Source of the DNA: Candidatus Sumerlaea chitinivorans
GTDB taxonomy: Bacteria; Sumerlaeota; Sumerlaeia; Sumerlaeales; Sumerlaeaceae
Length of the DNA: 64,000 bases
Direction: 5' to 3'
Assembly (NCBI GenBank): GCA_003290465.1
Contig: CP030759.1
Span: 3,050,572-3,114,571, forward strand
Shown: piece after piece, positions 1-44,966 of the stretch
Layout: each line of letters begins with the position of its first letter
How positions within the stretch are numbered: position 1 is the first letter of the stretch
Program-made: the position numbers and the translations under genes
Notes under the pieces: generated by a model
What the model was told of the DNA's origin: nothing
What the model saw: only the letters and a program-made list of their open reading frames with translations
The model's database searches: none

Positions 1-816
1 TCGCGTTTTTCGTGCTGTAGCTCCAACACTCGCAGACTATGCACAGTACATCGAGGCCATATGCAACCCAAGGGCGCAGCACAACACCAGACGTTCAGGG
101 ACGGCCGCCCTCCTTGGCGACGCCCAAATTCCGGTTACGTTCCGCGCCCGCTCCTATTCAGCTCCTTTTAGTCCGCAGACTCCGGGGGTTCGCGAACAAT
201 TCAGAAAAAAACGAATCAGTGTTGACAGAGTACCGATTTGGTACCATATACTGTGGGCGTTGCGGGTAATGATCGCAGAGAACGCGGCGTACCCATACCT
301 TTTGCGTGGGAGAGTTGGGTCGTGGTATGAGACAGAAATGTGAAATTAGATTTGTAGGCAGATTCGGTTTGACTTTTGCCAACGAAGGCCCCTTTTACGT
401 AAAACCGAAAGGGGTAAAGTTAATAGGGTAAGGACGCACAACGCGTCGCTGATAAAATAAAGCAGCAACCGGGAGATGTGGCAGGTACGCTGGGTGATAC
501 CATCTCGCAACTCGATCATTCCCGCATAGGATGATTACTGCAGACGATACGGCGCGAGGTCGTCGCACTTTTTTGAGCGAGTACCTCGTGCCGGATCGGA
601 CCGAAAGGCCGACGGCATGAGAGAGTGAGGATGGTTTTGGGTATGGTGAGTGGGTCAAGCAGGCGGAAACACCGCGCTGGAGTGAATAAGAACCGTTTTC
701 AAACCGAGGGGTCTCCCCATCTCTGGCCATCGCCGTTCAGAGAATTCCCATCTTTTTCTCCATCCATGTCCTCTCACACACTGACGCAAGACGAAATCCA
801 TTCAGGGAGCGGAGCA
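1..816. other. Leader region without a recognisable gene
   Basis: No open frame here looks like a known protein; the short frames at 39-269 (+), 158-382 (-) and 395-730 (-) overlap each other and have no family resemblance. The stretch holds a possible promoter at 222-252. A weak GC-rich hairpin with a run of six T follows at about 550-577, which could be an attenuator or terminator. I looked for the conserved cores of common riboswitches and saw none. The open frame of the giant gene extends upstream to a GTG at 625, but residues coded by 625-816 have no signal peptide or domain character. Confidence 0.5.
222..252 (+). promoter_or_regulatory. Possible sigma70-type promoter
   Basis: TTGACA lies at 222-227 and TATACT at 247-252, separated by 19 bases; reading CATATA at 245-250 as the -10 box gives 17. 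A GGTACC palindrome sits between the boxes. If used, it would give the giant gene an untranslated leader of more than 550 bases. The 19-base spacing is longer than ideal, so this is only a candidate. Confidence 0.3.
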
Positions 817-3800
817 ATGATCGCGAAAGGACATTCCAAGGATATGAAGGGGCAAATCGGACGCAGAGGTTCGTGGCGTACGCTTTGGGCGACACTTGCA
901 GTGTTTGCGGGTTTAGCGGCGCCGTGGCCCCTCCAGGCGGCCCAACCGGGTAAGGATGGCGATGCTGTAATTACGTCTGCGAACACAATTGTGAATGCCG
1001 TCTCTGCCCTAAGTCAGAGCGCCTCGGCCGGCGACACGTTTCTTCGCGTTACGAATCTTCCCGCTCTGCTCCCTCTTTCGCCCGGAGATCTTTTGCTTGT
1101 CTCCCAAGCACAGGGCGCTAACATAGATACGAGCGATTCTCCCTCTTACGGCGCGATCACAGCGATCAATGGGGCCGGGCAATATGAGTTTGTGACGGTG
1201 GTTTCCACCCAAAATCCTAACCGGGTCTATATTGTGACTTCGTGTGGTGGTCTGCGCAACAGTTACGTCGCGAGCGCTGGTAGCCAAGTGGTGAAGGTTC
1301 CGCAGTACCGGAATCTGACCGTCCAGTCTGGTGCCAGCATTACCGCACCACCGTGGAATGGGTCCGAAGGCGGTATCGTCGCCCTTTCGGTTCGTGACAC
1401 ACTTGAGCTGAACGGTACTATTGATGTGAGCGCGAAGGGGTTCCGTGGCGGCGCGATTCACAACTCGAGTTCCACCCCAACCAACAATTACCTTGGCTAT
1501 AGAACGGGAAACGCTGCGCAAGGCGCGGCAAAGGGAGAAAGCATTGCTGATCCCTCAACAGTTTCCGGAAATGGCCAATATGGACGTGGTGCTCCGGCCA
1601 ACGGCGGCGGCGGAGGCAACTCCTTTAATGCCGGCGGTGGTGGTGGCGCCAACGGCGATAACGGGGGAAGTTGGTTTGTTGCCGATGGTATCCGCGGTGG
1701 TCAGGGTGTGATGGAAACCGACGTGACCTCGTGGCTGCAAGCTTGGCAATTGGATCCCGCTTATACTGCGAATGGCAATCAACTCACGAACTGTGCCGGT
1801 GGCGGACGCGGTGGTTATTCATTTTCGGCGAACGATCAAAATGCACTGACCGTGGAGCCCGGGAACGCGTCTTGGGGCGGAAATCTCCGGCGTGAAAAAG
1901 GTGGTTGGGGAGGTCGGCCGCTTCCCAACAATCCTGCCACGCGGGTCTTTTTTGGTGGCGGCGGTGGCGCTGGCGACGGAAACGACTCAGTTGCCGGTCG
2001 AGGCGGAAATGGTGGTGGTCTCGTATTTATCATTGCTGGGCACATTACTGGCACAGGTGAGATCCTTGCGGATGGCGAAAACGGGGGTTGGAGCGGCGAA
2101 AACGCAACATCCGACAGCGCTGGCGGTGGTGGTGCTGGCGGGAGCATTGTGATCCTCGCGGGTAGTGCAAGCGGTTCCGTAGCGCTTCGCGCCCGCGGTG
2201 GAGAGGGTGGTTGGCAGCCTCTACGCCAACTCCCCACGAACCAAGCTTACGGTCCCGGTGGCGGTGGCGGTGGTGGCTATATTGCGTATAATGTCACGGG
2301 ATTTTCCACGGTGGCCGTGGATGGAGGCAAAGGTGGCCGTACAACCGCAACGGCGGTTTCCGAGTTCCCACCGAATGGCGCAACGGCCGGTAGCCCCGGC
2401 GCGACCTTGTCGAGTTTCACTACTATCGCCTCGTGCGATGCGTTTGTTTCTGGACTTGTCTTTAATGATCTGAACAATGACGGAATTCGCCAAGGTGGCG
2501 AGCCGGGCTTAAGCGGCGTTCCGGTCGTCCTGACCCTCAGCGACTCCTCAACCACAACAGTTCTAACCGCGTCGGATGGCTCCTTTTTCTACATGGCTCC
2601 CTCCGGCTCAACAACGGTGAATGTCGATGAATCTGGCTTCCCGTTTGGGTGGGTGCTTACGACGGGAAATGATCCGCAGGCGCTGAGCTTGAGTGCGGGG
2701 GTGAATTCCTCAGCTGGGTTGATTGGATATTATTTCCCGCCTCTCGCGGACCTCTCGATTGAGAAGACCGACGATCCCGATCCTGTTTATGCGGGGGATT
2801 TGCTCACTTACACTGTTGTCGTGACCAACAATGGGCCAGATCCGGCCAATAACGTATTGATTACGGATACGCTACCGAGCGGAGTGAATTTTGTGTCCGC
2901 GTCCGTGCCGTGTACCCCGAGTGGGGGGCTGGTCTCCTGCAGTCTTGGGACAATTCCTGCGGGTGCGAGTACGACGGTCACCATTGTGGTCCAGCCCATG
3001 GTGGCGGGGACGATTGTGAACACCGCTGATGTGACGTCGGACGAAGTGGATCCAAATCCAAGTAACAATTCGTCGGGCGACATCTCGACAGATGTTCTCC
3101 CCGCGGCTGACCTCGTGATTACGAAAAGTGCGGATCCAGCAGTTGTTCTGACCGGCCAGCCGGTAGTCTATACGATTGTTGTCTCCAATGCGGGGCCGTC
3201 CGATGCCTCCAATGTCGTGGTGAGTGACACATTGGATCCGTCGTTTACAATCACCAGCGTTTCAAGCGGGTGCACACCATCCGGAAACACGGTTACATGC
3301 AGCGTGGCAACGCTTGCTGCTGGCGACTCAACGACGTTCACTGTCACCGCGGTTCCAAGTGCGACGGGGACCTATTTGAATGGCGCCTCCGTCGTTGCTG
3401 ATGAGTATGACCCAGACACGGGAAACAATGCCGATTCCGTGTTGGTGACCGTGGATCCCGCAGCGAATCTCTCAGTTACGAAAACCGCGAGCGTGGATCC
3501 AGTCGCCATTGGTGCCAACTTTACCTACGAAATCGTGGTGACCAATGCTGGGCCGGATACGTGTACCTCGGCAACCGTGACCGACTATCTGCCGGCAGGC
3601 GTGCAGTTTGTGAGCGCCTCAAGTGGCTGTGCGGAATCGTTCGGGGTCGTCGCATGTGACGTTGGTCCGCTGGCTGGCGGCGAGTCCACGACCGTAACTA
3701 TCACAGTATTGGCACAGACCCTTGGGCCGATTCAAAACACCGCTAACGTCGTGGGTGCCGAAGGGGATCCCAATGGCGGCGATAACGTAGTCACACTGGA

Positions 3801-6800
3801 TGGAACGATCGAACCCGACTGCAACGCCAATGGAGTCGCCGACTCGCTCGATATTGCGAACGGCACTTCAGAGGATTGCAACACGAACGGCATCCCGGAC
3901 GAGTGCGATATTTCGAGCGGTGCGTCCGAGGACTGCAATGGTAACGGGATCCCGGATGAGTGCGAGACCGAGTGCAACGGCAACGGCATCCCGGACGATT
4001 GCGACATTTTGAATGGCACATCTGAGGACTGCAATGGCAATGGCGTGCCAGATGAATGTGACATGCAGAGGGGATCTTCCGAAGACTGCAATACGAACGG
4101 CGTTCCTGACGAGTGTGATCTGAGCCTTGGAACATCGCAGGACTGCAACTCGAACAACATCCCCGACGAGTGCGACATAGCACAGGGGACCGCGCAGGAT
4201 TGCAATAGCAACGGCATTCCGGACGATTGCGATATTGAGAGTGGTGCTTCCCAAGACTGCAACACGAACGGCATCCCCGACGAGTGTGACCTGCAACCGC
4301 AAGTTGGTGCGCTTGTGTGGTCGGAAGACTTCGAGTCTGGGTTAAGCAATTGGAGCACGTCGGGCCTGTGGCGCTTGGAAGTTGGTCACGAGTGTCTGAG
4401 TGAAGACGGGTCGCTGACGACGGTGACGCGTGCGGCTTACAATGATCCATCGCTGTGCACGTATAACGTTGGCAGTACCGCGGGGGCACTGGAGCTGACG
4501 ACGGATGTTGTGGTGCCAGCTACGGGCGGAGCGCTGCGCTGGTACAACTGGGTTCAGACGGAGGATTTGCCACCGTACGATGTGTGGCGGGTAGAGGTGT
4601 CGTCGGACGGCGGGTTGACTTGGCAGGAGGTGTTTGATGGCCAGGGGCTGAGCCAGCCGTACTGGCAGGATTTGTGGGCGGACTTAAGCGCGTATGCTGG
4701 GCAAGCGATTCGTGTCCGTTTTGTCTTCGATAGTATAGACGGGGCCGCCAATGCGTATCTTGGCTGGTATGTTGACGATGTTCGCCTGTTTGAGCTCGTT
4801 GCCCCGGCGTTTAGCAGCGACTGCAACTCGAACGGTGTTCCGGATGAATGTGATTTGGCAAGCGGTAGCTCGCAAGACTGCAACTCGAACACCGTGCCGG
4901 ATGAATGTGATATCTCAAGTGGGGCGAGTGATGACTGCGACGGCAATGGTGTGCCGGATGAGTGCGAGCCGGACTGCAATGGGAACGGGCAAAACGACGT
5001 CTGTGACATCGGGTTTGGGTTCAGCTTCGACTGCAATGGCAACCAAGTTCCCGACGAGTGCGAGTCGGACTGCAACGGAAATGGTGTGCTCGATACGTGC
5101 GATATTCTTTATGGGATAAGTGGTGACTGCAACATTAACGGAGTGCCCGACGAGTGCGATTTGAACGACGGGACTTCCGAGGACTGCAACGCGAACGCGA
5201 TTCCGGATGAGTGCGAGCTCTACGTTCAGTATGGAGATAGTTCCCCAGCTCTTGAGCCGTGGTACGCGGGTAGTCCGCAGAGTTATACCTTCAGCGGGGT
5301 GCCCGATGCAGCCAGCACCGTGGCCGTCGTCTTGGCCTCTAACTCTGATTTAGGTAATCAGACATTCGAGTATGCCGAAGTCTATCTTGGTGGTACGTTC
5401 CTCGGTAATGTCTGGTTTGCCAATGGGGGAAATGATTGCGCGGATGCACCCGGAATCTTGTACGTGGATGCATCGCAGTTCAACAGTCTTGTGGCATTAG
5501 GGGGAGGGGACGCAGCATTTGATTTAATTGCTTCGCCGGCCGTAGACTCGTTCTGTGCAGATCCCTATATTGCCATCTCGCTGGATTATCTAACGACTCA
5601 GCCGTTCAACGACTGCAATTCCAATGGGGTTCTCGATGAATGTGACATTACGAGCGGCACTTCCCAGGACTGCAACGGGAACGGAATCCCAGATGAATGC
5701 GACATCGCGGACGGCACTTCTGAGGATTGCAATGGCAACGGGGTTCCAGACGAGTGTGACATCCAGAGTGGTGTGTCTGAGGATTGTAATGGCAACGGAA
5801 TCCCCGACGAGTGTGATCTTGCGAATGGTAGCTCGGAAGACTGCAACTTGAACAACATTCCCGACGAGTGCGACCTGAGCAGTGGGACGTCGCAGGACTG
5901 CAACGCCAACAATATCCCGGATGAGTGCGACCTTGCGGACGGCACGTCCGAGGACTGCAATGGTAACGGGATTCCGGACGAGTGCGACATCCAGAGTGGT
6001 GTGTCTGAGGATTGCAACGGGAACGGGATTCCCGATGAGTGTGATCTTGCGAATGGTAGCTCGGAAGACTGCAACTTGAACAACATTCCCGACGAGTGCG
6101 ACCTGAGCAGTGGGACGTCGCAGGACTGCAACGCCAACAATATCCCGGATGAGTGCGACCTTGCGGACGGCACGTCCGAGGACTGCAATGGTAACGGGAT
6201 TCCGGACGAGTGTGACATCCAGAGTGGTGTGTCCGAGGACTGCAATGGCAACGGTAGTCCGGACGAGTGTGATCTGAGCCTTGGGACGTCGCAGGACTGC
6301 AACTCGAACAACATCCCGGACGAGTGCGACGTGCGTCCGGAGGTGGGTTTACTTGTGTGGTCCGAGGACTTTGAGTCTGGGTTGGGCAATTGGAGCGCGT
6401 CGGGTCTGTGGCGGCTGGAGGTTGGACACGAGTGTCTGAGTGAAGACGGGTCTCTGACGACGGTGACGCGTGCGGCGTACAATGATTCGTCGCAGTGCTC
6501 GTATGATGTTGGCGAGACCTCTGGAGTGTTGGAGCTGCAGACGGACGTTTCGGTGCCGGTTGGTGGCGGAGCGCTGCGCTGGTACAACTGGGTTGAGACG
6601 GAGGATTTGCCGCCGTACGATGTGTGGCGGGTAGAGGTGTCGTCGGATGGCGGGTTGACTTGGCAGGAGGTGTTTGATGGCCAGGGGCTGAGCCGTCCGT
6701 ACTGGCAGGAGCTGTGGGCGGACGTGAGTGCGTATGCGGGTCAGTCGATCCGTGTACGGTTTGTGTTCGAGACGTTGGATGATGAGTTCAATGACTACCT

Positions 6801-9800
6801 TGGATGGTATGTTGACGATGTTCGGCTGTACGAGCTGACGGGGGCGGCCACGAGTTCGGACTGCAACATCAACGGGATTCCGGACGAGTGCGAGGTGGAC
6901 TGCAACGGCAATGGTGTGCCGGATGACTGTGACCTCGTGGATGGGACGTCAGAGGATTGCAATGGCAACGCCGTTCCGGACGAGTGCGATATTCAGAGCG
7001 GTACCTCTGAGGATTGCAATACCAACGGGATCCCGGATGAGTGCGATCTGAGCAGTGGTACATCGCAGGATTGTAACGCGAACGGGATTCCGGATGAGTG
7101 CGATATCGCGAGTGGCGCTTCGGAGGATTGTAACGGCAACGGGATTCCCGACGAGTGTGACCTTGCGAATGGGACCTCTGAAGACTGCAACTTGAACAAC
7201 ATTCCCGACGAGTGCGACCTGAGCGGTGGGACATCGCAGGATTGCAACGCGAACAATATCCCGGATGAGTGTGACATTGCGGCCGGCACGTCCGAGGACT
7301 GCAATGGCAACGGAGTCCCGGACGAGTGTGACATCCAGAGCGGTGCCTCCGACGACTGCAATGTTAACAGCGTTCCGGATGAATGTGATATCGCAAATGG
7401 CACCTCGGAAGACTGCAACGCGAATGGTGTTCCGGATGAGTGCGACTTGAGCAGCGGCGCGTCGCAGGATTGCAATGCGAACAATATCCCTGACGAGTGC
7501 GACATTGCGTCAGGAACATCCCAAGATTGCAACTCTGATGGTTTGCCGGATGAGTGCGGATTGGTGTCGGTAGCGGTCGCTGGTTCGGATGAATGTTCCT
7601 CGGCGCCTCTCGTCCTGCCTGGACTGATTTACAACGGCGATACAACAACGGCAACCCAAGACGGTTCGGAGTCGTGTACGGGCTACGATAGCCCTGACGT
7701 ATGGTATCGGTATATCCCTGCCGTGAGCGGAACCCTCACGATCTCGCTATGCGGCAGCTCTTATGATACGGCGCTGTCCGTACATACGGGCTGTCCGGGC
7801 GATACAACAAACGAGATCGCTTGCAACGATGATTCGTGTGACTTGTCCTCCGAGGTCACATTAAGTGTGACCGCGGGCGAGGAGTATCTGATCCGCATTG
7901 GCGGGTATGACTCAGATGTGGGGACCTATCGGATGCAATTGTTTGGGCCTCCGGCGTTGGGTCTCGTCCCGGATTGTAACGCCAACGGCACTCCAGACGA
8001 GTGCGACATCACAAGTGGCACGTCGCAGGACTGCAATGCCAACGGCATCCCTGATGAGTGCGAGCCGGATTGCAATGGAAACGGCATCGCCGATGAGTGC
8101 GACATCAGCAGTGGCTCTTCGGAGGACTGCAACGAGAATGGAGTTCCAGACGAGTGCGATCTCCAGAGCGGTGCATCTGAGGATTGCAACGCAAATGGTA
8201 TCCCGGATGAGTGCGATATCGCAGACGGCGTTAGCGACGATTGCGATGAGAATGGGGTGCCGGATGAGTGCGAGCCCGACTGCAATGGCAACGGGCAGAG
8301 CGATCTTTGCGATATTTGGATGGGATTTAGCGAAGACTGTAATTGGAATGCCGTTCCGGACGAGTGTGAACCGGATTGCAACGGCAACGGTGTTGCCGAT
8401 AATTGCGACATACTCTTTGCAACAAGCGCGGATTGTAACACGAATGGGGTGCCCGATGAGTGCGACATCCAGAGCGGCAACTCAACGGACTGCAATGCGA
8501 ACGGGATTCCGGATGAGTGCGAGCTTTACGTTGCCTACGGCCCCAGTTCGCCTGCCCTTGCGCCTTGGTACTACGGTAGCCCACAGAGCTACACGTTCAC
8601 GAGCGTACCTGACGCGCTCAGCTCCGTGACGATTGTCTTAGTATCGAACTCCGATTTAGGTGATGCGTACTACGAGTACGCTGGGGTTTATCTGGGTAGC
8701 ACGTACCTCGGGGATGTGCGGTTTGCGAATGGCGGCAACGACTGTGTCGACGCGATTGGAGTGTTGTACCTGAGTGCAGCGCAATTCAACAGCCTGGTAG
8801 CAGCAGGAGGCGGCGACGCAGCATTTGATCTGATTGCAACGCCCGATGTCGGAGGCTTCTGTCCAGATCCGTACATTGCAATCTCCCTCAACTATCTGAC
8901 GACCGAAACGCTAAGCGACTGTAATTCCAACGGTGTGTTGGACGAGTGCGAGACGGACTGCAATGGGAACGGCGTGCCAGACGACTGCGATCTGAGCAGT
9001 GGCACCTCGGAGGATTGCAACTCGAACGGTGTTCCGGATGAATGCGATATCCAAAGTGGGACATCCGAAGACTGTAACACGAACAACATTCCTGACGAGT
9101 GTGACCTCGCAAATGGAACGTCACAGGATTGCAACCTGAACAGTGTGCCCGACGAGTGTGACATTGCCAGCGGCGCGAGCGAAGATCTGAATGGCAATGG
9201 CGTTCCCGACGAGTGTGATCCAGACTGCAACTCAAACGGTGTGCCGGATGACTTGGACATCGGAGCGCCGTTTGAAGCTGATTCTGGATTGCTCGCTCCG
9301 TGGTATGCTGGGTCACCGCAGAGCTACTTGATCGTGTCACCACCTCCGGCTGCAACAGCTGTTCAGATTTCTCTGACGGCCCTATCGGATCTTGGAGATA
9401 TCGATTTTGAGTACGCCACTGTCAACGTGAATGGCGTACCCGTTGGCGATGCGAAGTTTGTAAGCGACGGGGATTGTACCACGGGAACCGCCACTCTGAC
9501 CATGAGCGCGGCTGCATTCAATGCCGCTGTAGCGGGTGGGGACGCTTTGATTGGACTCACCCCCTCTCCAGATGTGGGCGGATTCTGCGACGACTCATTC
9601 ATCTCAGTCCATGTGATGTACGTGCCGGTGGGTGTATCATTGGATTGCAACGCCAATGGCATCCCCGACGAGTGTGATATTGCCGAGGGCACCAGTCAGG
9701 ATTGCAACGCCAATGGCATCCCCGACGAGTGTGATTCGGATTGCAACGACAATGGGGTCGCGGATGATTGCGATCTCACGTCTGGCACGTCGCAAGATTG

Positions 9801-12800
9801 CAATTCCAACGCCATCCCCGACGAATGCGACATTGCAAGCGGGTTCAGCGAGGATTGCAATTCCGACGATATCCCCGACGAATGCCAGCTTGTGGACGTC
9901 GTGACGCAGATTGCGGCGGCACCAAATCCGGGGATTGTCGGTCAGCCGCTTGATCTGACGGTGACATTCAGCAACTCCTTCGGCACTGCTACCCAGGTTA
10001 GCGCCTTCATTGTCGTGCCGGGGATCCTGCCAGTGACAAATATCACGACAACGATGGGGACCGTAACCGACCTTGGCGGCGGTCTCTATCAGCTCGACGT
10101 ACCGTCGCTGCCGGGGATGGGCGCAGCTGTCGTCACCATCTCAACGCTACCGTCTGCCACCGGAGCGGTCCAAGTCTTAGCGAGTGCTTCCACATGTATC
10201 TTCGACTTCGATCCAGAGAACAACGTGGATGCCTTGTTCATGAGAATTGGCCTCGACTGCAACACCAATGGGATCGAGGATGAGGATGAAGTTAGCCCAA
10301 CGGAAGGGGCGGTCTTATTCCACGAGGACTTCGAGAGCGGGCTTGGGCTCTGGAATGCGAGCGGCCTCTGGCATGCCGCGCCGACGCTTGATTGCCTCAC
10401 CACGACTGGCTCGCTCACGCCAGCCACGGCCGCTGCCTATAACACCGGTAGCCCCGACTGCAACTATGACGTTGGCATTACCCAAGGGGCGCTTGAGCTG
10501 ACCACCGATGTGGTCGTGCCGGCGCCGTGGGGCGCTCGCCTCAAGTGGTTCAACTTCGTCGAGACGGAGAATAGCTATCCGTATGACAACTGGCTGGTGC
10601 AGGTCTCATCAGATGGCGGCACCAATTGGCAAACGGTGTACGATGGCCGAGGTGCCTCGCGGCCGGGCTGGCAGGAGCTTAGCGCTGACCTTACCCAGTT
10701 CGCTGGGCAGGCGGTCCGAATCCGGTTCGTGTTCGACAGCCTCGATGCGGGATTTAACGCTTTCTTCGGATGGTATGTGGACGACGTGCGCCTCATCGCG
10801 CTCGACGCGCCGCTATCGCCCGACTGCAACCAGAACCACATCCCCGACGAGTGCGACATCACAGGTGGGACGAGCACGGATTGCAACGCGAACTCGATCC
10901 CGGATGAGTGTGAACTTGACCAAGTGGTTGCGTTTGCGTCGGGCGTGCTTGAGCCGTTCGATGGCACAACCTCCCAGTCGTTTGTAGTGAGCTCGGTGCC
11001 GCCGGCCATCGGCATGGTCACCCTCCATCTCACAGCGTATGGAGATTTCGGTGACCCGCTACTTGAGACCGTAGATTTCTACCTCAATGGGACGTGGATT
11101 GCCACGACACCCATTTACACGGGGGGCCAAGACTGCACGTATGGCACCGCGGTGGTGCATATCCCGCAGGCGACCTACAACGCACTTACCAGTGGTGGAT
11201 TTGCCCAGTTCGATTTCGTCGCGAACCCGAACGTGAACGCATGCGCCGGGTCCTTTATCACGGCCATGTTCGATTACTTGGTTCTCGACCCTGCGAAGGA
11301 CTGCAACTCGAACGGTATTCTGGACGAGTGTGAGACCGACTGCAACGAGAACGGTGTGCCCGACGACTGCGATCTGAGCGGCGGTGTGTCGCAGGATTGC
11401 AATGCTAACAATGTTCCTGATGAATGCGACATCTCCCAGGGAACGTCGCAAGACTGCAATTCAAATAGTGTTCCTGACGAGTGCGACCTACAGAGCGGTG
11501 CTTCGCAAGACTGCAACGACAACAATGTGCCAGATGAATGCGATATCGCAAGTGGCGCGTCCGAGGACTGCAACGCGAACGGTGTACCGGATGAGTGCGA
11601 TCTGAGTGGCGGCGTGTCGCAGGATTGCAACGGAAACGGCGTGCCCGACGAGTGCGACATTTCGGATGGCACGTCCGAAGACTGCAACTCGAACAATATC
11701 CCCGACGAGTGCGACCTGCAGAGTGGTGCGTCGCAAGACTGCAACAGCAACAGTGTACCTGATGAATGTGACATCGCGAGTGGCACGTCAGAGGACTGCA
11801 ACGGTAACGGGATTCCGGATGAATGCGATGTGGCAAGTGGAGCCTCCGAGGATTGCAACGAAAATGGTATCCCTGACGAGTGTGAGACCGATTGCAACTC
11901 GAACGGAGTTCCGGATGACTGCGATATCGCCGGCGGCTCGTCCGAGGATTGCAACTCGAACAACATCCCCGACGAGTGTGACATCCAGAGTGGTGCGTCT
12001 GAGGATTGTAACGGCAACGGGATTCCCGACGAGTGTGATCTTGCGAATGGTAGCTCGGAAGACTGCAACTCGAACAACATTCCCGACGAGTGCGACCTGA
12101 GCGGTGGGACATCGCAGGATTGTAACGCGAACAATATCCCAGATGAGTGTGACATTGTGGACGGCACGTCTGAGGACTGCAATGGCAACGGAGTTCCGGA
12201 CGAGTGTGACATCCAGAGTGGTGTGTCTGAGGATTGTAACGGCAACGGGATTCCCGACGAGTGCGATCTGAGCCTTGGGACGTCGCAGGACTGCAACTCG
12301 AACAACATCCCGGACGAGTGCGACGTGCGGCCGGAGGTGGGTGCTCTGGTGTGGTCCGAGGACTTTGAATCTGGGTTGGGCAATTGGAGCACATCGGGCC
12401 TGTGGCGGTTGGAGGTTGGACACGAGTGTCTGAGTGAAGACGGGTCTCTGACGACGGTGACGCGTGCGGCTTACAATGATCCGTCGCAGTGCTCGTATGA
12501 TGTTGGCGAGACCTCTGGAGTGTTGGAGCTGCAGACGGACGTTTCGGTGCCGGTTGGTGGCGGAGTTCTGTTCTGGTACAACTGGGTAGAGACGGAGGAT
12601 CTGCCGCCGTACGATGGCTGGCGGCTCGAGGTTTCGTCGGATGGCGGGTCGACTTGGCAGGAGGTGTTTGATGGCAAGGGGCTGAGCCGTCCGTACTGGC
12701 AGGAGCTGTGGGCGGACGTGAGTGCCTATGCGGGTCAGTCGATCCGTGTTCGGTTTGTGTTCGATTCGCTGGACGATGAGTTCAACGACTACCTTGGGTG

Positions 12801-15693
12801 GTATGTTGACGATGTTCGGCTGTATGAGCTGGCGGGCGCGGCCACGAGTTCGGACTGCAACATCAACGGGATTCCAGACGAGTGCGAGGTGGACTGCAAC
12901 GGCAATGGTGTGCCGGATGACTGTGACCTCGTGGATGGGACGTCAGAGGATTGCAATGGCAACGCCGTTCCGGACGAGTGCGATATTTCCAGTGGCACTT
13001 CGGAAGACTGCAATTCGAACAATGTGCCCGACGAGTGCGATATCTTGACTGGCACGTCACAGGATTGTAACGCGAATAGTCGTCCAGATGAATGTGACGT
13101 CCAGAGCGGCGCTTCACAGGATTGCAACGAGAATGGGGTGCCAGATGAGTGCGAGGCGGATTGCAACGTCAACGGTGTCCCCGACGACTGTGACATTGCT
13201 GAAGGCACGTCGGAGGATTGCAATGCCAACGGCGTACCAGATGAGTGTGACATCCAGTCCGGTACCTCACAGGATTGCAACTCGAACAACGTTCCGGATG
13301 AATGCGACCTGAGCAGTGGGTCGTCGCAGGATTGCAATGACAACAGTGTTCCAGATGAGTGCGACGTTCAGTCCGGCACTTCGCAAGACTGCAACTCGAA
13401 CGGCGTGCCCGACGAGTGCGACATCAAGAGCGGCACTTCCGAGGATTGCAACGTGAACAACATCCCGGACGAGTGCGACATCGCCACCGGTGCGTCTGAG
13501 GATTGCAACGAGAATGGCACTCCGGACGAGTGCGAGACGGATTGCAACGAGAACGGTGTGCCGGATGACTGCGATATCGCAGAGGGAACATCTGGCGACT
13601 GCAACGCGAACAGCATCCCAGACGAGTGCGATCTGGCGAATGGCACCTCAGAGGATTGCAACTCGAATGGTATTCCAGATGAGTGCGATATCTCGGACGG
13701 CACCTCCGAGGATTGCAATGAGAACGGAGTGCCAGACGAGTGCGATCTGACCAGTGGACTGTCGCAGGATTGCAATGAAAACGGCATTCCTGACGAGTGT
13801 GAGACGGATTGCAACGAGAACGGAGTGCCGGATGACTGCGATATCGGCGAAGGCAATAGCCGCGACGACAACTTTGACGGAGTGCCAGACGAGTGTCAGT
13901 CGGCGGACCTTGCGATCTCAAAGCGTGGTGAGATCAACCCGGCTCAAGCAGGATATCAGCTGGTCTACACGCTCGTGGTGCACAACCTCGGGCCCGCTGC
14001 CGCTCCGAATGTGGTGGTGGTGGATCCGCTGCCGGCGGGCGTGACTTTTGTCTCCGCGTCGTCTACAAAAGGCACGTGCTCGTATGTGCCGCATACCGTG
14101 ACCTGCACGGTTGGGCTGCTGGCGGTGGATGAGGTGGCCACGGTCACAATTACGACCATCCCGATGACACCCGGCACGTACGACAACACGGCCAGTGTCG
14201 CCTCAAGCATCACAGACACTGTGACTGCGAACGATTCGTCGTTCGTCAGCAATGATGTGTGCGATCCGTTCACGCCAATCATCATTGACACCTTGGATCC
14301 GCTGACGGGTGGCGACTCAGGTTGGCGTCCGTTCGCCTTCCAGATCCCAGACTTTGCGGACCAGATCTACGACACAACCAACACAGCCCTTGTCGCACGC
14401 ATTACCGCAGATCCGACACGATTCCGGACGGCCGGTCATGTGACGCTCCAAAGCATGTGGCTGCCGTACTCGGCGGTTGGCTCAGAACACTATGTGCGAG
14501 GCAAATTCTACGTCTTCGCCAAGGGCATCACAGACTGGTCGACAATGACGGAAGGCACCGATTGGACGACGACGGGTGCAATGCCGAACGTGCGTCTCCG
14601 CCTGTCGCATCGCTTCGCTCAGAACTCGATGCTTGAGGTCTTCAACCACCGGAACATTGACCCAGAAGCCTCCGACGCGGTGGGTGCGGACATTCGTCCA
14701 TCCACTGACCCGTCGAATCCGTCGCTCTACCGCGTGGACTTTGACCCCGTGGATACGCCGTACTTGCGCGATAGCGGGACGACGGAAGGCATCTGGGCAG
14801 CTTACGAGGCCTACTCAGTTGATCCACAAGATCAAGGCATCGTCGGTCTAACCGAGGTGCAGCTGGGTGTGTATCCGGCGTCGCTCCTGCCCGACAGCGT
14901 GGCGCCTGTGAAAGTCTATGCACCAAGCTCATCGGATGCGGGCACGCTGGCAGTGGTCTTGCCGACGGACCTGCAGCTTGAGACTCGTTATCCGATTTCT
15001 GGACCGGGCGACGTGCCAGATCTTGACCCATCAGCGCCGCTACCGCAGCACTTCGAGGGTCCCGAGGGGATCACGCTGAGTACAGTGGGTATCCCGGCGG
15101 ATCGATTAGCAATCGCAGTGCGCGAGTTTGACGCAGGGTCCGACCTGACGCAGCGGGTGCGCGTCGAGGCGAACAAGATCTACAAGGTCCGGTTCCATGT
15201 CACCTCGACCAAACCGACGAATGTCCAGCCGCAGTTCCGCGGGCGCACTCGAACCGCACGGTTCTTGTGGAGCCAGAAGATGGAGGTAGGCGGTGCATGG
15301 AATGCTGGACCTGAGTCGAATGCGGACGCACAGCAGGCGCTGCCGGGTGTTGGCTGCCTGAACCCAGACCGGGCGCCGGGCGTCACCACTGGTGGTTGGT
15401 ACACTCTGTTGTTCCATTCGCCGCTGAATCCGGATATCCGACCCGAATTTGCACCGGGGACACCGGTCGAGACACGGATGCCGGGCCTCGCGGCACAACC
15501 GGGACCGGGTGTAAATGCCGCTTCGCTGCGCGACCTGCGGGTGGGCTTCGACGTGCTCGATACTCTCTCGGGCAGCGCGTTGAGCGGACTTGAAGAGGGT
15601 GAATTCACGCTCGACCGCATCGAAATCCGTGTATACGACGAACCGGGTGACGTGGGTCTATGTCCGCCGTTCGGCGGTCCAGCCGTAAAATAG
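817..15693 (+). CDS. Giant secreted multidomain protein with Cys-rich calcium-loop repeats (4958 aa)
   Basis: Start 817 is chosen because AGGGAG precedes it and a signal peptide follows (hydrophobic run ending WPLQAAQ); the frame stays open up to a GTG at 625. Domain order by base position: Gly-rich segment about 1560-2430; SdrD-B-like domain 2440-2745; three DUF11-like domains 2749-3815; 108 units of the pattern DCNxNGxPDECD plus a short linker (hand count) between 3817 and 13899, in 11 blocks. The blocks alternate with four copies of a MAM/immune-inhibitor-A-like beta-sandwich (4305-4812, 6331-6855, 10285-10818, 12325-12855), four copies of a second beta-rich module (about 5215-5610, 8521-8920, 9260-9640, 10908-11298), one PPC-like domain (7558-7960) and one further DUF11-like domain (9884-10250). 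A fifth DUF11-like domain (13900-14255) and a 480-residue C-terminal module follow. A calcium-rigidified surface stalk or adhesin is inferred; no enzyme domain was seen. Confidence 0.9.
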   Translation: MIAKGHSKDMKGQIGRRGSWRTLWATLAVFAGLAAPWPLQAAQPGKDGDAVITSANTIVNAVSALSQSASAGDTFLRVTNLPALLPLSPGDLLLVSQAQGANIDTSDSPSYGAITAINGAGQYEFVTVVSTQNPNRVYIVTSCGGLRNSYVASAGSQVVKVPQYRNLTVQSGASITAPPWNGSEGGIVALSVRDTLELNGTIDVSAKGFRGGAIHNSSSTPTNNYLGYRTGNAAQGAAKGESIADPSTVSGNGQYGRGAPANGGGGGNSFNAGGGGGANGDNGGSWFVADGIRGGQGVMETDVTSWLQAWQLDPAYTANGNQLTNCAGGGRGGYSFSANDQNALTVEPGNASWGGNLRREKGGWGGRPLPNNPATRVFFGGGGGAGDGNDSVAGRGGNGGGLVFIIAGHITGTGEILADGENGGWSGENATSDSAGGGGAGGSIVILAGSASGSVALRARGGEGGWQPLRQLPTNQAYGPGGGGGGGYIAYNVTGFSTVAVDGGKGGRTTATAVSEFPPNGATAGSPGATLSSFTTIASCDAFVSGLVFNDLNNDGIRQGGEPGLSGVPVVLTLSDSSTTTVLTASDGSFFYMAPSGSTTVNVDESGFPFGWVLTTGNDPQALSLSAGVNSSAGLIGYYFPPLADLSIEKTDDPDPVYAGDLLTYTVVVTNNGPDPANNVLITDTLPSGVNFVSASVPCTPSGGLVSCSLGTIPAGASTTVTIVVQPMVAGTIVNTADVTSDEVDPNPSNNSSGDISTDVLPAADLVITKSADPAVVLTGQPVVYTIVVSNAGPSDASNVVVSDTLDPSFTITSVSSGCTPSGNTVTCSVATLAAGDSTTFTVTAVPSATGTYLNGASVVADEYDPDTGNNADSVLVTVDPAANLSVTKTASVDPVAIGANFTYEIVVTNAGPDTCTSATVTDYLPAGVQFVSASSGCAESFGVVACDVGPLAGGESTTVTITVLAQTLGPIQNTANVVGAEGDPNGGDNVVTLDGTIEPDCNANGVADSLDIANGTSEDCNTNGIPDECDISSGASEDCNGNGIPDECETECNGNGIPDDCDILNGTSEDCNGNGVPDECDMQRGSSEDCNTNGVPDECDLSLGTSQDCNSNNIPDECDIAQGTAQDCNSNGIPDDCDIESGASQDCNTNGIPDECDLQPQVGALVWSEDFESGLSNWSTSGLWRLEVGHECLSEDGSLTTVTRAAYNDPSLCTYNVGSTAGALELTTDVVVPATGGALRWYNWVQTEDLPPYDVWRVEVSSDGGLTWQEVFDGQGLSQPYWQDLWADLSAYAGQAIRVRFVFDSIDGAANAYLGWYVDDVRLFELVAPAFSSDCNSNGVPDECDLASGSSQDCNSNTVPDECDISSGASDDCDGNGVPDECEPDCNGNGQNDVCDIGFGFSFDCNGNQVPDECESDCNGNGVLDTCDILYGISGDCNINGVPDECDLNDGTSEDCNANAIPDECELYVQYGDSSPALEPWYAGSPQSYTFSGVPDAASTVAVVLASNSDLGNQTFEYAEVYLGGTFLGNVWFANGGNDCADAPGILYVDASQFNSLVALGGGDAAFDLIASPAVDSFCADPYIAISLDYLTTQPFNDCNSNGVLDECDITSGTSQDCNGNGIPDECDIADGTSEDCNGNGVPDECDIQSGVSEDCNGNGIPDECDLANGSSEDCNLNNIPDECDLSSGTSQDCNANNIPDECDLADGTSEDCNGNGIPDECDIQSGVSEDCNGNGIPDECDLANGSSEDCNLNNIPDECDLSSGTSQDCNANNIPDECDLADGTSEDCNGNGIPDECDIQSGVSEDCNGNGSPDECDLSLGTSQDCNSNNIPDECDVRPEVGLLVWSEDFESGLGNWSASGLWRLEVGHECLSEDGSLTTVTRAAYNDSSQCSYDVGETSGVLELQTDVSVPVGGGALRWYNWVETEDLPPYDVWRVEVSSDGGLTWQEVFDGQGLSRPYWQELWADVSAYAGQSIRVRFVFETLDDEFNDYLGWYVDDVRLYELTGAATSSDCNINGIPDECEVDCNGNGVPDDCDLVDGTSEDCNGNAVPDECDIQSGTSEDCNTNGIPDECDLSSGTSQDCNANGIPDECDIASGASEDCNGNGIPDECDLANGTSEDCNLNNIPDECDLSGGTSQDCNANNIPDECDIAAGTSEDCNGNGVPDECDIQSGASDDCNVNSVPDECDIANGTSEDCNANGVPDECDLSSGASQDCNANNIPDECDIASGTSQDCNSDGLPDECGLVSVAVAGSDECSSAPLVLPGLIYNGDTTTATQDGSESCTGYDSPDVWYRYIPAVSGTLTISLCGSSYDTALSVHTGCPGDTTNEIACNDDSCDLSSEVTLSVTAGEEYLIRIGGYDSDVGTYRMQLFGPPALGLVPDCNANGTPDECDITSGTSQDCNANGIPDECEPDCNGNGIADECDISSGSSEDCNENGVPDECDLQSGASEDCNANGIPDECDIADGVSDDCDENGVPDECEPDCNGNGQSDLCDIWMGFSEDCNWNAVPDECEPDCNGNGVADNCDILFATSADCNTNGVPDECDIQSGNSTDCNANGIPDECELYVAYGPSSPALAPWYYGSPQSYTFTSVPDALSSVTIVLVSNSDLGDAYYEYAGVYLGSTYLGDVRFANGGNDCVDAIGVLYLSAAQFNSLVAAGGGDAAFDLIATPDVGGFCPDPYIAISLNYLTTETLSDCNSNGVLDECETDCNGNGVPDDCDLSSGTSEDCNSNGVPDECDIQSGTSEDCNTNNIPDECDLANGTSQDCNLNSVPDECDIASGASEDLNGNGVPDECDPDCNSNGVPDDLDIGAPFEADSGLLAPWYAGSPQSYLIVSPPPAATAVQISLTALSDLGDIDFEYATVNVNGVPVGDAKFVSDGDCTTGTATLTMSAAAFNAAVAGGDALIGLTPSPDVGGFCDDSFISVHVMYVPVGVSLDCNANGIPDECDIAEGTSQDCNANGIPDECDSDCNDNGVADDCDLTSGTSQDCNSNAIPDECDIASGFSEDCNSDDIPDECQLVDVVTQIAAAPNPGIVGQPLDLTVTFSNSFGTATQVSAFIVVPGILPVTNITTTMGTVTDLGGGLYQLDVPSLPGMGAAVVTISTLPSATGAVQVLASASTCIFDFDPENNVDALFMRIGLDCNTNGIEDEDEVSPTEGAVLFHEDFESGLGLWNASGLWHAAPTLDCLTTTGSLTPATAAAYNTGSPDCNYDVGITQGALELTTDVVVPAPWGARLKWFNFVETENSYPYDNWLVQVSSDGGTNWQTVYDGRGASRPGWQELSADLTQFAGQAVRIRFVFDSLDAGFNAFFGWYVDDVRLIALDAPLSPDCNQNHIPDECDITGGTSTDCNANSIPDECELDQVVAFASGVLEPFDGTTSQSFVVSSVPPAIGMVTLHLTAYGDFGDPLLETVDFYLNGTWIATTPIYTGGQDCTYGTAVVHIPQATYNALTSGGFAQFDFVANPNVNACAGSFITAMFDYLVLDPAKDCNSNGILDECETDCNENGVPDDCDLSGGVSQDCNANNVPDECDISQGTSQDCNSNSVPDECDLQSGASQDCNDNNVPDECDIASGASEDCNANGVPDECDLSGGVSQDCNGNGVPDECDISDGTSEDCNSNNIPDECDLQSGASQDCNSNSVPDECDIASGTSEDCNGNGIPDECDVASGASEDCNENGIPDECETDCNSNGVPDDCDIAGGSSEDCNSNNIPDECDIQSGASEDCNGNGIPDECDLANGSSEDCNSNNIPDECDLSGGTSQDCNANNIPDECDIVDGTSEDCNGNGVPDECDIQSGVSEDCNGNGIPDECDLSLGTSQDCNSNNIPDECDVRPEVGALVWSEDFESGLGNWSTSGLWRLEVGHECLSEDGSLTTVTRAAYNDPSQCSYDVGETSGVLELQTDVSVPVGGGVLFWYNWVETEDLPPYDGWRLEVSSDGGSTWQEVFDGKGLSRPYWQELWADVSAYAGQSIRVRFVFDSLDDEFNDYLGWYVDDVRLYELAGAATSSDCNINGIPDECEVDCNGNGVPDDCDLVDGTSEDCNGNAVPDECDISSGTSEDCNSNNVPDECDILTGTSQDCNANSRPDECDVQSGASQDCNENGVPDECEADCNVNGVPDDCDIAEGTSEDCNANGVPDECDIQSGTSQDCNSNNVPDECDLSSGSSQDCNDNSVPDECDVQSGTSQDCNSNGVPDECDIKSGTSEDCNVNNIPDECDIATGASEDCNENGTPDECETDCNENGVPDDCDIAEGTSGDCNANSIPDECDLANGTSEDCNSNGIPDECDISDGTSEDCNENGVPDECDLTSGLSQDCNENGIPDECETDCNENGVPDDCDIGEGNSRDDNFDGVPDECQSADLAISKRGEINPAQAGYQLVYTLVVHNLGPAAAPNVVVVDPLPAGVTFVSASSTKGTCSYVPHTVTCTVGLLAVDEVATVTITTIPMTPGTYDNTASVASSITDTVTANDSSFVSNDVCDPFTPIIIDTLDPLTGGDSGWRPFAFQIPDFADQIYDTTNTALVARITADPTRFRTAGHVTLQSMWLPYSAVGSEHYVRGKFYVFAKGITDWSTMTEGTDWTTTGAMPNVRLRLSHRFAQNSMLEVFNHRNIDPEASDAVGADIRPSTDPSNPSLYRVDFDPVDTPYLRDSGTTEGIWAAYEAYSVDPQDQGIVGLTEVQLGVYPASLLPDSVAPVKVYAPSSSDAGTLAVVLPTDLQLETRYPISGPGDVPDLDPSAPLPQHFEGPEGITLSTVGIPADRLAIAVREFDAGSDLTQRVRVEANKIYKVRFHVTSTKPTNVQPQFRGRTRTARFLWSQKMEVGGAWNAGPESNADAQQALPGVGCLNPDRAPGVTTGGWYTLLFHSPLNPDIRPEFAPGTPVETRMPGLAAQPGPGVNAASLRDLRVGFDVLDTLSGSALSGLEEGEFTLDRIEIRVYDEPGDVGLCPPFGGPAVK
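3817..13899 (+). repeat. Array of 57-bp units coding 19-residue Cys/Asp/Asn repeats
   Basis: The usual unit is 19 residues, DCNGNGIPDECD followed by a variable loop such as IxxGTSE; shorter 13-residue units end in ECET, ECEP or ECEV. I counted 108 units in 11 blocks of 9, 8, 13, 13, 11, 7, 5, 1, 2, 19 and 20. Asp1, Asn3, Asn5, Asp9 and Asp12 match the spacing of calcium loops in thrombospondin type 3 and dockerin repeats, and two Cys per unit could form disulfides. A few units lose a Cys (DLNGNG near 9190, DDNFDG near 13865). Calcium binding is inferred from the pattern. Confidence 0.9.
5761..6216 (+). repeat. Two tandem 228-bp higher-order repeats
   Basis: Four consecutive 57-bp units (IQSGVSE, LANGSSE, LSSGTSQ and LADGTSE types) are repeated as a block with a period of exactly 228 bases: ATCCAGAGTGGTGTGTC recurs at 5761 and 5989, and the next copy begins at 6217 before diverging. 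The two blocks differ at only a few bases, mostly synonymous. This indicates recent duplication or gene conversion inside the array. Confidence 0.85.
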
Positions 15694-15736: not shown

Positions 15737-15995
15737 TCTCCCTCCCCAAAGATGAGAGGCGGTGGCAAGTCATTCAATACACGGGTGTGTGCGCAAGTAG
15801 CGCAACGCCCGTGATTTCTTTGTTGCACATTTCATGCATCCCAAGCGCACGATAAAACAGTGCGCAGGGCAGGCCTACGCGTCGAAATGTGGAATCAACA
15901 TTCAGTGAAGTGTGCCAAGTTGGGAGAGAACAAAGTCTACAGGCAAAACGAGGAAACGATACCTTGATAAGTTGTTCCGTCGTGGGATGTGCGGA

Positions 15996-17018
15996 ATGAG
16001 TGATAGCGAGCGAGAAACGATTTTTAACCCAGATGATGACTCCGACGCAGCCGAAGCCACGCTTATGGGTGCGCTGCACCAACGGGCTCATCCACGGCAC
16101 CTAACATTCACGCCCCTCTTGATTTGTCTCGAGGGTGGGCATCGTGGCATGCGTTATACGCTCAAGGCCAAGGAGCAGATTATTGGACGAAGCCGCGATG
16201 CGGAGATCCACCTCGACGACGAACTGGTTTCACGGCAGCATGCGCGCATCATCTGGCACAACTTTGAAACTCCTCAAGTACCTCCGTACTGCACGATAGA
16301 GGACCTTGGAAGCCGCAATGGGACTGAGCTTAATGGGGCTCCTCTGCTTGCTCCTACCCAGTTGCGAGAAAGAGACCGAATCCTTGTCGGGACCACCCTG
16401 CTCGGATTTTTCTTGCGCGATGCCACGGAAGCCGAGCTTGAGCGATCGCTTTATGATTTGGCGACGAAAGATGCGCTGACCGGCCTCGACAATCGCCACC
16501 AGTTCAATGCCATGTTGGTCCACCACGTTGAGCGTGCGCGCCGCTACGAAAGGCCCCTCGCACTGCTTGTCATCGACGCGGATCGCTTCAAACGCATCAA
16601 TGATGAATTTGGTCACGACGTTGGCGACAGAGCTCTCGTTCAGCTTGCACGAGTCATCTCGACGTCCTGTCGCTCGAGTGAGATTTGCGCCCGCTGGGGT
16701 GGCGAGGAGTTTGCGGTACTTTGCCCAGAAACAACAGCCGAAGGAGCCATCACGTTAGCGGAGCGCATTCGCCAAAGAGTGCAGATCTTTCCACTCGAGC
16801 ATGATGACCGCCTGATTCCGCTGAGCGTGAGTATTGGGGGCGCCATGCTTCAAGCAGAGGACAACGCAGATACTCTCTTCCGCAGAGCAGACCAATCCCT
16901 CCTCCGTGCCAAAGAAATTGGTCGGAATCGTACTGTATTTGAGAATAAGCCTGTGGGTCTTGATCACACAGCGACCTTCACCGGTAGGCTCCCTAAAGAG
17001 AATCCACCAAATGAGTGA
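15996..17018 (+). CDS. FHA domain - GGDEF diguanylate cyclase
   Basis: The 340-residue protein begins with an acidic N-terminus followed by an FHA domain carrying GRSRDAEI, SRQHA and GSRNGT, the phosphothreonine-binding signature. A GGDEF domain follows, with DALTGLDNR, a DADRFKRIND metal/GTP motif and GGEEF at the active site. It should make cyclic di-GMP from two GTP, with the FHA domain coupling activity to a phosphorylated partner. The position of the usual RxxD inhibitory site reads RSSE, so product inhibition may be weak or absent. There is no membrane segment, so it is cytoplasmic. The start is ambiguous: GTG 15912, ATG 15987 and ATG 15996 are all in frame; I prefer 15996 because the residues from there look like a normal N-terminus, although its ribosome-binding site is weak. 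Confidence 0.88.
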   Translation: MSDSERETIFNPDDDSDAAEATLMGALHQRAHPRHLTFTPLLICLEGGHRGMRYTLKAKEQIIGRSRDAEIHLDDELVSRQHARIIWHNFETPQVPPYCTIEDLGSRNGTELNGAPLLAPTQLRERDRILVGTTLLGFFLRDATEAELERSLYDLATKDALTGLDNRHQFNAMLVHHVERARRYERPLALLVIDADRFKRINDEFGHDVGDRALVQLARVISTSCRSSEICARWGGEEFAVLCPETTAEGAITLAERIRQRVQIFPLEHDDRLIPLSVSIGGAMLQAEDNADTLFRRADQSLLRAKEIGRNRTVFENKPVGLDHTATFTGRLPKENPPNE

Positions 17019-17291: not shown

Positions 17292-20200
17292 TCAGTAGAG
17301 CTCCCAACTGCTGACCGCAGTATTCATTGGCGAGATGGTGACATTGTCAATCCACGTGCCTTCGTTGGCAGCAGGTGCACCCGTGTGGTTCTCGCGGAAG
17401 CCAATTTGGAAGGCACCTTTCGTGCGTCCTTCCGCAGGAATGGGGCCACGGTACACATCCACGTTGTTGATCTGAGCAATGAGTTGGTTTCCCGAACTGC
17501 CGTTCGGGTCGATCGCCAGTCGGAAGGTTGTCCATGTCCCACCGGTGACACCCACTTGGGCGAGGGTCTTGCTTCCAAGGAAGACCGTCGGCGACGCGTG
17601 ATTTCCATCATTCACCGCCTGCACAAATTCGAATGTGCCGGGATGATCTGGTCGCCCATCGTTGAGGCCCACGCCGCTGGCGTTTTCAAAAATGAGCCAA
17701 TAGCCGTTTTCGTAGCTCGACACGCCGGGCGAAGCGGTTGGGAAGAAGCGGCTCCCCTGTGTGCCACAGATCCCGATGCCGATGGCCTGTGCAGGTTCGC
17801 CTGAGCCGGGGATGTAGATCTCGCCCGTCACTTGATACCCGTTGCCATTTGCGCCCAACGAAGAGTCGCCGATCACACCTATCACACCGCCTCCGCTTGT
17901 ATCCACGCAACGATACACTTTTCCATGCGGGTTGCCCGGATCCACTGAAGCGGGCGGAGTGACGACAGCGAATGTCTGGAAGGTCTGGAATCCTTGGGGC
18001 GGTGCGCTTTCAAAGTTAAAGCTCACCGGTAATGTGAGTCCGGCGCCGTTCGGCAGCCCCGGCGTGGCGACCATGAAGGAGAAATCGTTGCCGTTCACCC
18101 ATGTCGTTGCCCCATCCGGGTAGCGTCCAGCGGAGTAGGGATCGCCCAAGCTGCTTGTGCCCGAGGCCACTTCGCCGAGCCATGGGGGGCCAAAGTCCGC
18201 CACGATGGGGCATCCCGGTCCATCCAAGCCATTTAAACCACCTGCGGCTTGATAAACCACGCTGTCGTACGTAATCCCAGTATTGGGGTCGTAGAGCTGA
18301 ATCGCGTTTGGTGCGCCGTTCCGCAACATCCCGTCTGGAAGCGCCTGATTGCGTACGGCAGCAAGGTCGGAAGCCCCCACCAGATACAGCCCCGATGCTG
18401 GAATCGTGTTCCCGCCAACGACGACCGTGTCCACGACTTGGCCGCTGAATCCGCTGACGGTGCGCAGCTCAAGGCCTGCAGGCATGGTCACGCCAGCCGG
18501 CCCCGCAATTTCTACAAACTGTTTGGAAGCGGTCGCATAGCGGAACTCGTTGATCACGAATTGGCGGTTGTTGGGCATCGAGGGTTGGTAAAGAATTCGG
18601 TCGAAGTTGATTGTGCCGGTTGCCCCACTAAAGCCAGTCGAGGAAATCTCGAAGCCCGCAAAGGTGATGTCACGTGCTCCGCCCCCTGCCGTATCAATGA
18701 CACCATTCCCTGATGAGTAAGCACCTTCACTGGTGGTGTAGGCCGTCACAGGATCGTTTGCGAGATCGAATGAAATCTGGCGCCAGCCAGCGCTGGTCAA
18801 ATTGAAGGCAGGTCCTTTCTCGAGCTGGTTGTTTGCATCGCGTACCACCATGCGGATGGTTGTTCCAGCATATGCGCTCGGAACGTGGATATCGGCCAAG
18901 AACTTTGTGTTCTTGCTCACGTGCACAAGGGCATTGCCCCAGTCCACGCTATAAGGCGTGTTGGTTCCCATGAGGGGCTGATGCTTGAAGAAGAAGCGCC
19001 CCGGCAGTGCTGTGAAGCGGAACGACACCGCCAGCACACGGTTGCTACCCGACGGCGCGCCTGCTGGTGCAGCAGCAGGTGCACGTGTCGAAGCGGTTGC
19101 ATCCACATTTTGATCGTCCGGTCCATCCTCAGGTTCCCGCCAGCGCGCATTGAAACCAGTGTTGGTGTCCGAAGAGATATGTTCAAAGCTTTCGGCGAAG
19201 TAAGTACGCACCCCGGGCGTGGCAAAGAGTTCTTCCATCAGCGTGTACGGGAAGCCCAAAGTACGCGTCAGGCTTTGCGGCCCCGCGCCCGTGTTATTCG
19301 GGTCCACCGATTGTGTTTCAATGAGCCACAACAGGCTCCAGAAGGCCACGCCTCCAAGCTGCTTACCGCGGGAATTTGCCCCTTTCCATGCCTTCACTAA
19401 GCGGAACTTGTATTCGAGCGTTTCCCAATCGTCGAATGTGGTCAGGCGGTAAGTGGTGCCGCTAATCAGTCGTTTGTACCACTTCGTGTGGTGATTTGTG
19501 GGGTTGCTGTAGTATTTGGTGTAGGGTGGATTTCGGTAGAGCGTGTCGTAATTTGCTTGAAGGAGGCTATCGGCCCCGACCTCGGTTCCTGTCCCGCCAT
19601 AGGTCCCTGAGGCGTCCGTATCCCAGCTCTTGGTGTAGAACGGGAGACCCAGAACGAGGTGTTCTGGTGGAATGCCTGCTGCGATGTAGTCATCGAGATT
19701 CCCAACAATGCTGTAGGTGCTGGTTGTCCCGTATTCGCCCACCGACTGCATTGTGGTACCGGAAGCAAAGTCGTAGCCGCTATAGATCACGTAGTCTGTG
19801 TAGTTCGTCAGGTTTGAGGCGATATACTGCGTGCTACTCCAACTTGGAATGGTGTAGATACTTAGCTCGCGCGGTGGCGTCAGCGCCTTTAGGGCTGTAT
19901 AGAGACCTTGAATAAACGCAGCAATTCCATCGCGCGTCGAAGTTCCCCAGCTAAATTCGAAATCGAGATTGACGCCATCGCATCCGGTGGTTGGGTTGCT
20001 CACCACCGCCACGACGTTGTCGATTAACTTTTGCCGCAGCGTCGCGCTCGTCATGACGGTGGAAAGAATTGACTCGTCAAAATTCTGGTTCGCGAGGACG
20101 ATCACCACCTTCACGCCATTGTTCGAGGCCACACCACCCGGTTTTAGCTCAGCACTCCGGTTGTTGAATGATGTGACCCCACCAAGATTCGCGTCTGCAT

Positions 20201-20393: not shown

Positions 20394-20666
20394 TGCCCCT
20401 TCCAACCTTCCTTTCTCCAACTGTGTTTGTCCAGCCAATCACGCTGCTCGAAGAAAGTCAAGACGAGACGGGGCGTTCGGAGTCTTCTAAGAGCGAAAAT
20501 GGGGTTCTCGCGATACTATGGAATGGGCGCGTGGCAATGACCAACGACCGTAGGGCGTTGCGTTCCTCTTCCACGACAGACAAGTTTGCCATCACCCAAC
20601 CATAGTAAACTCGCTCAAAGCGCTGTCCTAAGCGGGGCGAGTCGGCAATGTGTGGGGCGGAAGTGC

Positions 20667-40597: not shown

Positions 40598-40682
40598 ACG
40601 CCGCTCTCCGCCGTGATGTTCGGGCCAATGGAAATTGAGTTTTCACTGGAATGCAATAACCTTGGGTTAGAGGAGGGAACAG

Positions 40683-42483: not shown

Positions 42484-42489
42484 CACGAT

Positions 42490-44897: not shown

Positions 44898-44966
44898 ACC
44901 CTGTGTGCGCACTCTCGGGCTGCGTCGGTGCGTGGGGAATTGAGGCGCTTGCCTTTCAAGCCAGGT

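Follow-up and report, generated by a model that had tools for sequence, protein, structure and literature searches.

What kind of protein does a 15-kb gene of "Candidatus Sumerlaea chitinivorans" encode, and do the many Cys-rich repeats of this protein belong to a known family of calcium-binding loops? The gene was found in strain BY40, which comes from a 2-km-deep Siberian aquifer (PMC8092238). In the window (the whole stretch of 64,000 nucleotides that was analyzed, to which all positions refer unless stated otherwise), the plus strand has no stop codon in frame from 577 to 15693. We place the start at ATG 817, which lies downstream of a GGGAG sequence and is followed by a signal-peptide-like N terminus (MIAKGH...LWATLAVFAGLAAPWPLQA; 817-939, as read from the sequence); the gene at 817-15693 (+) then encodes 4958 amino acids, and the mechanical ORF from GTG 625 encodes 5022. 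The first-pass annotation had described one gene for a secreted multidomain protein and had itself raised the objection that the gene might be split by sequencing errors or stop codons. The frame is open throughout, and because the BY40 genome consists of a single contig (3,289,105 bp), this objection is without support. Secretion is supported. Directly downstream of the giant gene, an FHA-GGDEF diguanylate cyclase is encoded (15912-17018, +), followed on the minus strand by a GH18 chitinase-type protein of 1048 amino acids (17292-20438). Farther on (38007-46895), there are three T2SSE-type ATPase genes and an MshEN protein gene, probably parts of a type IV pilus or of type II secretion.

An independent count of the unit D-C-N-x-N-x-x-x-D-x-C-[DE] (here, the DCN unit) gave exactly the number reported before, 108 units in 11 blocks. 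In order along the plus strand, the blocks delimited by this count comprise 9 (3817-4290), 8 (4819-5217), 13 (5611-6330), 13 (6859-7560), 11 (7972-8523), 7 (8917-9258), 5 (9643-9888), 1 (10255-10290, the single unit DCNTNGIEDEDE), 2 (10822-10914), 19 (11299-12324), and 20 (12853-13899) units. Spacing from unit to unit is 19 residues in 80 pairs and 13 residues, with a one-residue linker, in 15 pairs; linkers between units have the form [IL]xxG[TAS]S[EQ]. A strict pattern is matched by 106 units, in which D1 and D9 are invariant because the pattern itself fixes both; Cys2, Asn3, and Cys11 are each present in 104 of these units and Asn5 in 103. The strict Cys-Cys form of the unit was observed 102 times, compared to 0.01 times in shuffles of the same protein, and 208 of the 249 Cys residues of the protein sit inside units. 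Only two further ORFs with DCN units exist in the BY40 genome (1722 and 1246 amino acids), and both end in the C-terminal module described below.

The remainder of the protein consists of other domains, all encoded on the plus strand. Its N-terminal domain (946-1815; NF047640, E 2.3e-60) is similar to that of AgmC of myxobacteria, yet the score of 204.7 bits stays below the equivalog cutoff of 275 bits; a literature search for AgmC returned nothing. Gly-rich sequence extends from this AgmC_N-like domain to about 2450 and is followed by an SdrD_B-like domain (2455-2679; PF17210, E 3.8e-6, just under the cutoff) and three DUF11 domains (2749-3816; PF01345/TIGR01451). Between the repeat blocks, two types of module occur in four copies each, as the first-pass annotation had stated. 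The MAM-like modules (4291-4818, matching PF20773; 6331-6858; 10294-10821, matching NF038128 and PF20773; and 12325-12852) are 59 to 93% identical, the highest value being that between the second and the fourth copy. The four copies of module B (5218-5610, 8524-8916, 9259-9642, and 10915-11298) are 33 to 72% identical and match no Pfam family, which makes module B a second domain without a name. The PPC-, DUF11-, and SdrD_B-like domains named earlier were likewise recovered: there is one PPC-like module (7561-7971; PF23759 GBD_T9SS_assoc, E 3.6e-8), and a divergent DUF11-type segment recognized by position and sequence (9889-10254) and a DUF11 domain with a Pfam match (13900-14256) bring the DUF11-type stretches of the whole protein to five, with one SdrD_B-like stretch.

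The first-pass annotation had included neither the AgmC_N-like N terminus nor the conserved module of about 440 amino acids with which the protein ends (14269-15690, +; core about 14305-15642). Pfam, NCBIfam, and PDB sequence searches gave no match to this module. A second copy in the window (57778-58995, +) forms the end of a 2028-amino-acid protein with GHL10, FN3, and MAM-like domains (52912-58998, +). Seven ORFs of the BY40 genome carry the module, and by profile search each of the eight genomes in the "Ca. Sumerlaea" family has 1 to 15 copies, at full length, with a partial score in the most incomplete of the eight. The full-length module is absent from 378 other genomes (32 of Sumerlaeota and the rest of 386 relatives), and the only matches outside the family are partial ones near E 5e-5 in two genomes. 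It was not found in viral contigs or in 30 unit-bearing Planctomycetota genomes, a set without a positive control. In 49 of 49 diverse ORFs the module is the extreme C terminus, usually with no residue after it (the maximum, 13, occurs in the giant protein itself), and 43 of these ORFs end in Asp. The carriers include subtilases, M4 proteases, GHL10 hydrolases, amidases, propellers, beta-helices, and others, many of which have a signal-peptide-like start according to a simple hydrophobicity rule.

Some carriers are neighbors. In BY40 locus L035, the gene for an M4 thermolysin-like protease adjoins that for a DCN-repeat protein (2-3520 and 3583-7320 of the locus), each protein having the module at its end, and two module-bearing ORFs likewise lie side by side in a genome of another genus, G029 (locus L145). 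The latter genome also encodes a protein similar to the GHL10-FN3 protein of the window, which again ends in the module (locus L175). In contig G030:C65 (locus L190, about 6270-7060), remnants of the module broken by stops lie beside DCN repeats and represent either a decayed copy or poor assembly.

Because the module is shared, strictly terminal, and attached to unrelated exported proteins, it looks like a sorting or anchoring domain. Tentatively, we propose an undescribed sorting system, limited to the "Ca. Sumerlaea" family, in which this module would serve for recognition or anchoring and which would bring proteases, glycosidases, and giant disulfide-ladder stalks to the cell surface. The Pfam and NCBIfam models of C-terminal sorting domains of type IX cargo do not match the module, and a search of the genome with TIGR04189 (SprA translocon) gave no match, its positive control being silent too. 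The main rival to sorting or anchoring is a module that binds a substrate or glycan and thereby directs its carriers to a polymer or the capsule of the cell itself, without being a signal for an export machinery; we regard this as possible but short of probable. It is favored by an AlphaFold2 prediction from the two window sequences that is beta-rich at low confidence (pLDDT 33), by a weak similarity between the halves of the module (P 0.0028), as in tandem beta-sandwich modules, and by the fact that several carriers are hydrolases. However, all 49 ORFs have it strictly at the C terminus, the last residue is conserved, and the carriers share no substrate, as is typical of sorting or anchoring domains.

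As for the repeats, the first-pass annotation had assigned them to calcium loops of the thrombospondin type 3 (TSP3) or dockerin type; the predicted fold fits this assignment, whereas the family models do not. The first six units of block 4 (6859-7161) were modeled by AlphaFold2 with a 27-row alignment (pLDDT 92.3, pTM 0.76), and the model places a helix of about seven residues after each loop (residues 22-28, 41-47, 60-66, and 79-85); of the five models, two reached a pLDDT of 92 and one only 43. The model fits the proposed loop; failure to obtain a calcium-loop model had been named beforehand as evidence against the assignment. Half of an EF-hand or of a dockerin is likewise built as a loop followed by a helix. 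Nevertheless, PF02412 (TSP_3), PF18884 (TSP3_bac), and PF00404 (Dockerin_1) match nowhere in the giant protein, so what the units share with these families is likeness and not membership; they form a separate sequence family, which may act like TSP3 or dockerin loops. No Pfam or NCBIfam model names the unit in scans of the whole protein and of single blocks, a PDB sequence search with a repeat block gave no match, Foldseek found nothing similar to the repeat model in PDB or BFVD at E values up to 10, and a literature search for the motif strings of the unit found nothing.

Like TSP3 repeats (PF02412 and PF18884), DCN units have the 12-residue loop D-x-[DN]-x-[DN]-G-x-x-D-x-C-D with Cys at position 11 and stand in tandem, in what would be rods, and they show all the residues of a TSP3-type loop (D1, D/N3, D/N5, D9, Cys11, and D/E12). 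They differ from TSP3 by the additional Cys2, by Asn in place of Asp at positions 3 and 5, and by the 19/13 period, and the giant protein has no L-lectin C-terminal domain. The Asn residues at 3 and 5 make the site less charged, which counts against calcium binding. Elsewhere in the BY40 genome, a 2260-amino-acid ORF (locus L036, 518-7297) has the only PF02412 matches of the genome, together with many FG-GAP-like DVDGDGDLD segments. With type I dockerins (PF00404), the units share the loop-then-helix plan of the AlphaFold2 model; unlike dockerins, they stand in long tandem arrays, with putative disulfides between units and no HMM match.

The loop-helix fold also allows a different role, namely that the units are half-dockerins of a scaffold that recruit cohesin-bearing enzymes, as in the proposed "planctosome," and thus are docking sites and not a spacer rod. 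An anchoring protein proposed for the planctosome of freshwater Planctomycetes, which has LTD, P-domains, and a cohesin, contains repeats termed TSP3 by its authors between the P-domains and cohesin (PMC6461901). Compared by description only, it is also giant and secreted with TSP3-type repeats between beta modules, but the modules of the "Ca. Sumerlaea" protein are different ones. Since Dockerin_1 has no match in the giant protein and since the tight spacing and the probably disulfide-coupled neighbors suit a rod better, we consider the scaffold unlikely and prefer a rod of linked units.

How the units of such a rod would be linked was assessed by covariation of the two Cys residues in 1684 units from 271 chains of 103 ORFs, in which Cys2 of unit i was compared to Cys11 of units i-4 to i+4. 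Loss or retention of Cys2 in a unit goes with that of Cys11 in the unit that follows (2 by 2 counts 83 and 25, 7 and 1298; odds ratio [OR] 616, p 2.3e-102, a Fisher p-value that, like the others here, assumes independent units, which related units are not). A shuffle within ORFs is the safer control because the units are related: the 83 joint losses, in 35 ORFs, compare to a mean of 18.8 and a maximum of 31 in 2000 such shuffles. The coupling at lag +1 holds for both spacings, with an OR of 1041 at 13 residues and of 2487, from eight informative pairs, at 19 residues. At lag -1, the OR is 1.2 (p 0.5). Smaller signals at lag +4 (OR 11) and lag -2 (OR 3) are possibly due to higher-order duplication. 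A disulfide between Cys2 and Cys11 of the same unit is not supported, as the OR is 1.5 (p 0.09; 3.4 with a narrower unit pattern) against 616 at lag +1. Thus, the two Cys residues that the first-pass annotation had offered for disulfides are probably used in this way, but the covariation places the bonds between neighboring units and not within one.

If Cys2 of each unit were bonded to Cys11 of its successor, the covariation, the exceptions in the window, and the losses at chain ends would all be explained. In the giant protein, both Cys residues are present in 96 of 97 neighbor pairs, and the sole inner loss is a coupled pair in block 6, DLNGNGVPDECD - DCNSNGVPDDLD (DLN...DEC followed by DCN...DDL); in addition, Cys11 is missing from the first unit of one chain and Cys2 from the final unit of block 11. 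At chain ends in general, the Cys without a partner is lost more often: Cys11 is kept in 76% of first units versus 95% inside chains, and Cys2 is kept in 68% of last units versus 93% inside chains. Judged from this sequence evidence, disulfides probably staple every unit to its neighbor, which would make the rod a ladder. Disulfides between type 3 repeats are known from animal thrombospondins. We consider it quite improbable that the units, rich in Cys as they are, bind a different metal or store redox equivalents, with no role for calcium: the concentration of Cys in the units would suit this, but their conserved Asp and Asn residues are arranged as in a 12-residue calcium loop, and the paired loss at lag +1, with joint replacements that are often hydrophobic pairs (L-L, V-V, and A-L), fits disulfides and not metal thiolates.

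Purifying selection acts on the units. Among the nine units that read DCNGNGIPDECD, no two have the same DNA sequence, indicating that their identity is not a recent DNA artifact and that the amino acids are conserved while the DNA drifts. A nonfunctional expansion of tandem repeats by unequal crossing over is therefore very hard to credit: longer-range copies do exist inside the gene (e.g., two 300-nucleotide stretches in block 3 with 93% identity), but identical units from different DNA, coevolving Cys pairs, 15 kb without a stop, and a related protein with 49 units in another genus (G029, where the contig ends inside the repeats) argue against it.

The DCN unit is not limited to this lineage. 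When species genomes were scanned with an alignment of unit quartets (14 rows), at least 573 loci were found to carry it, of which the best 79 belong to Planctomycetota by title apart from two, mostly to Phycisphaerae. It is present in 55 of 294 sampled Planctomycetota genomes, in frames of up to 4693 amino acids, and in 8 of 40 Sumerlaeota genomes. Giant genes are frequent in Planctomycetota (PMC11573180; PMC7717043). The Planctomycetota ORFs that were fetched, with the motif DCNxNG[IV]PDECD, have the same consensus, the same 19/13 spacing, and the same linkers as the giant protein, and among 94 of them module B occurs in 9, a PPC-like module in 6, and a MAM-like module in 2. Because the unit and its spacing are common there and some of the ORFs also carry these modules, the architecture is not unparalleled, and the earlier statement that the domain order resembles nothing known was too strong. 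The AgmC_N-like start and the C-terminal module, in contrast, were found in none of the Planctomycetota DCN ORFs tested.

Taken together, we favor, with some reserve, the reading that the gene product is a very large secreted protein of the surface or matrix, a disulfide-stapled stalk of calcium loops with beta modules that is sorted or anchored by its C-terminal module. Each unit would be a 12-residue calcium-type loop (ligands D1, N3, N5, the backbone at position 7, D9, and D/E12) followed by a short helix, and neighbors would be locked by the disulfide from Cys2 to Cys11 of the next unit, so that a block of n units would make a rod with about n-1 staples. The 11 rods would be spacers that hold the MAM-like, B, and PPC-like modules apart; these modules probably bind glycans or proteins, and the C-terminal module, which other exported proteins of the family also carry, would sort or anchor the whole. 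Calcium binding, rod shape, ligand binding, and sorting or anchoring are what we infer for the protein, and the earlier terms "calcium-stiffened," "stalk," and "adhesin" may be read in the same sense. As GH18 and GHL10 proteins are encoded nearby, the protein could plausibly help to attach the cell to particles or polymers.

What is new here is an unnamed look-alike of the TSP3 and dockerin loops that has a disulfide rule of its own, and the giant protein is a large member of this group with a lineage-specific end module. The repeat family has been overlooked by current domain libraries, though it is present in about a fifth of the sampled Planctomycetota genomes. It offers a testable rule for how its units are joined, by which Cys2 of each would be bonded to Cys11 of its successor, much as the repeats of animal thrombospondins are stapled. 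In the uncultured phylum to which "Ca. Sumerlaea" belongs, the family-wide C-terminal module marks a likely surface proteome.
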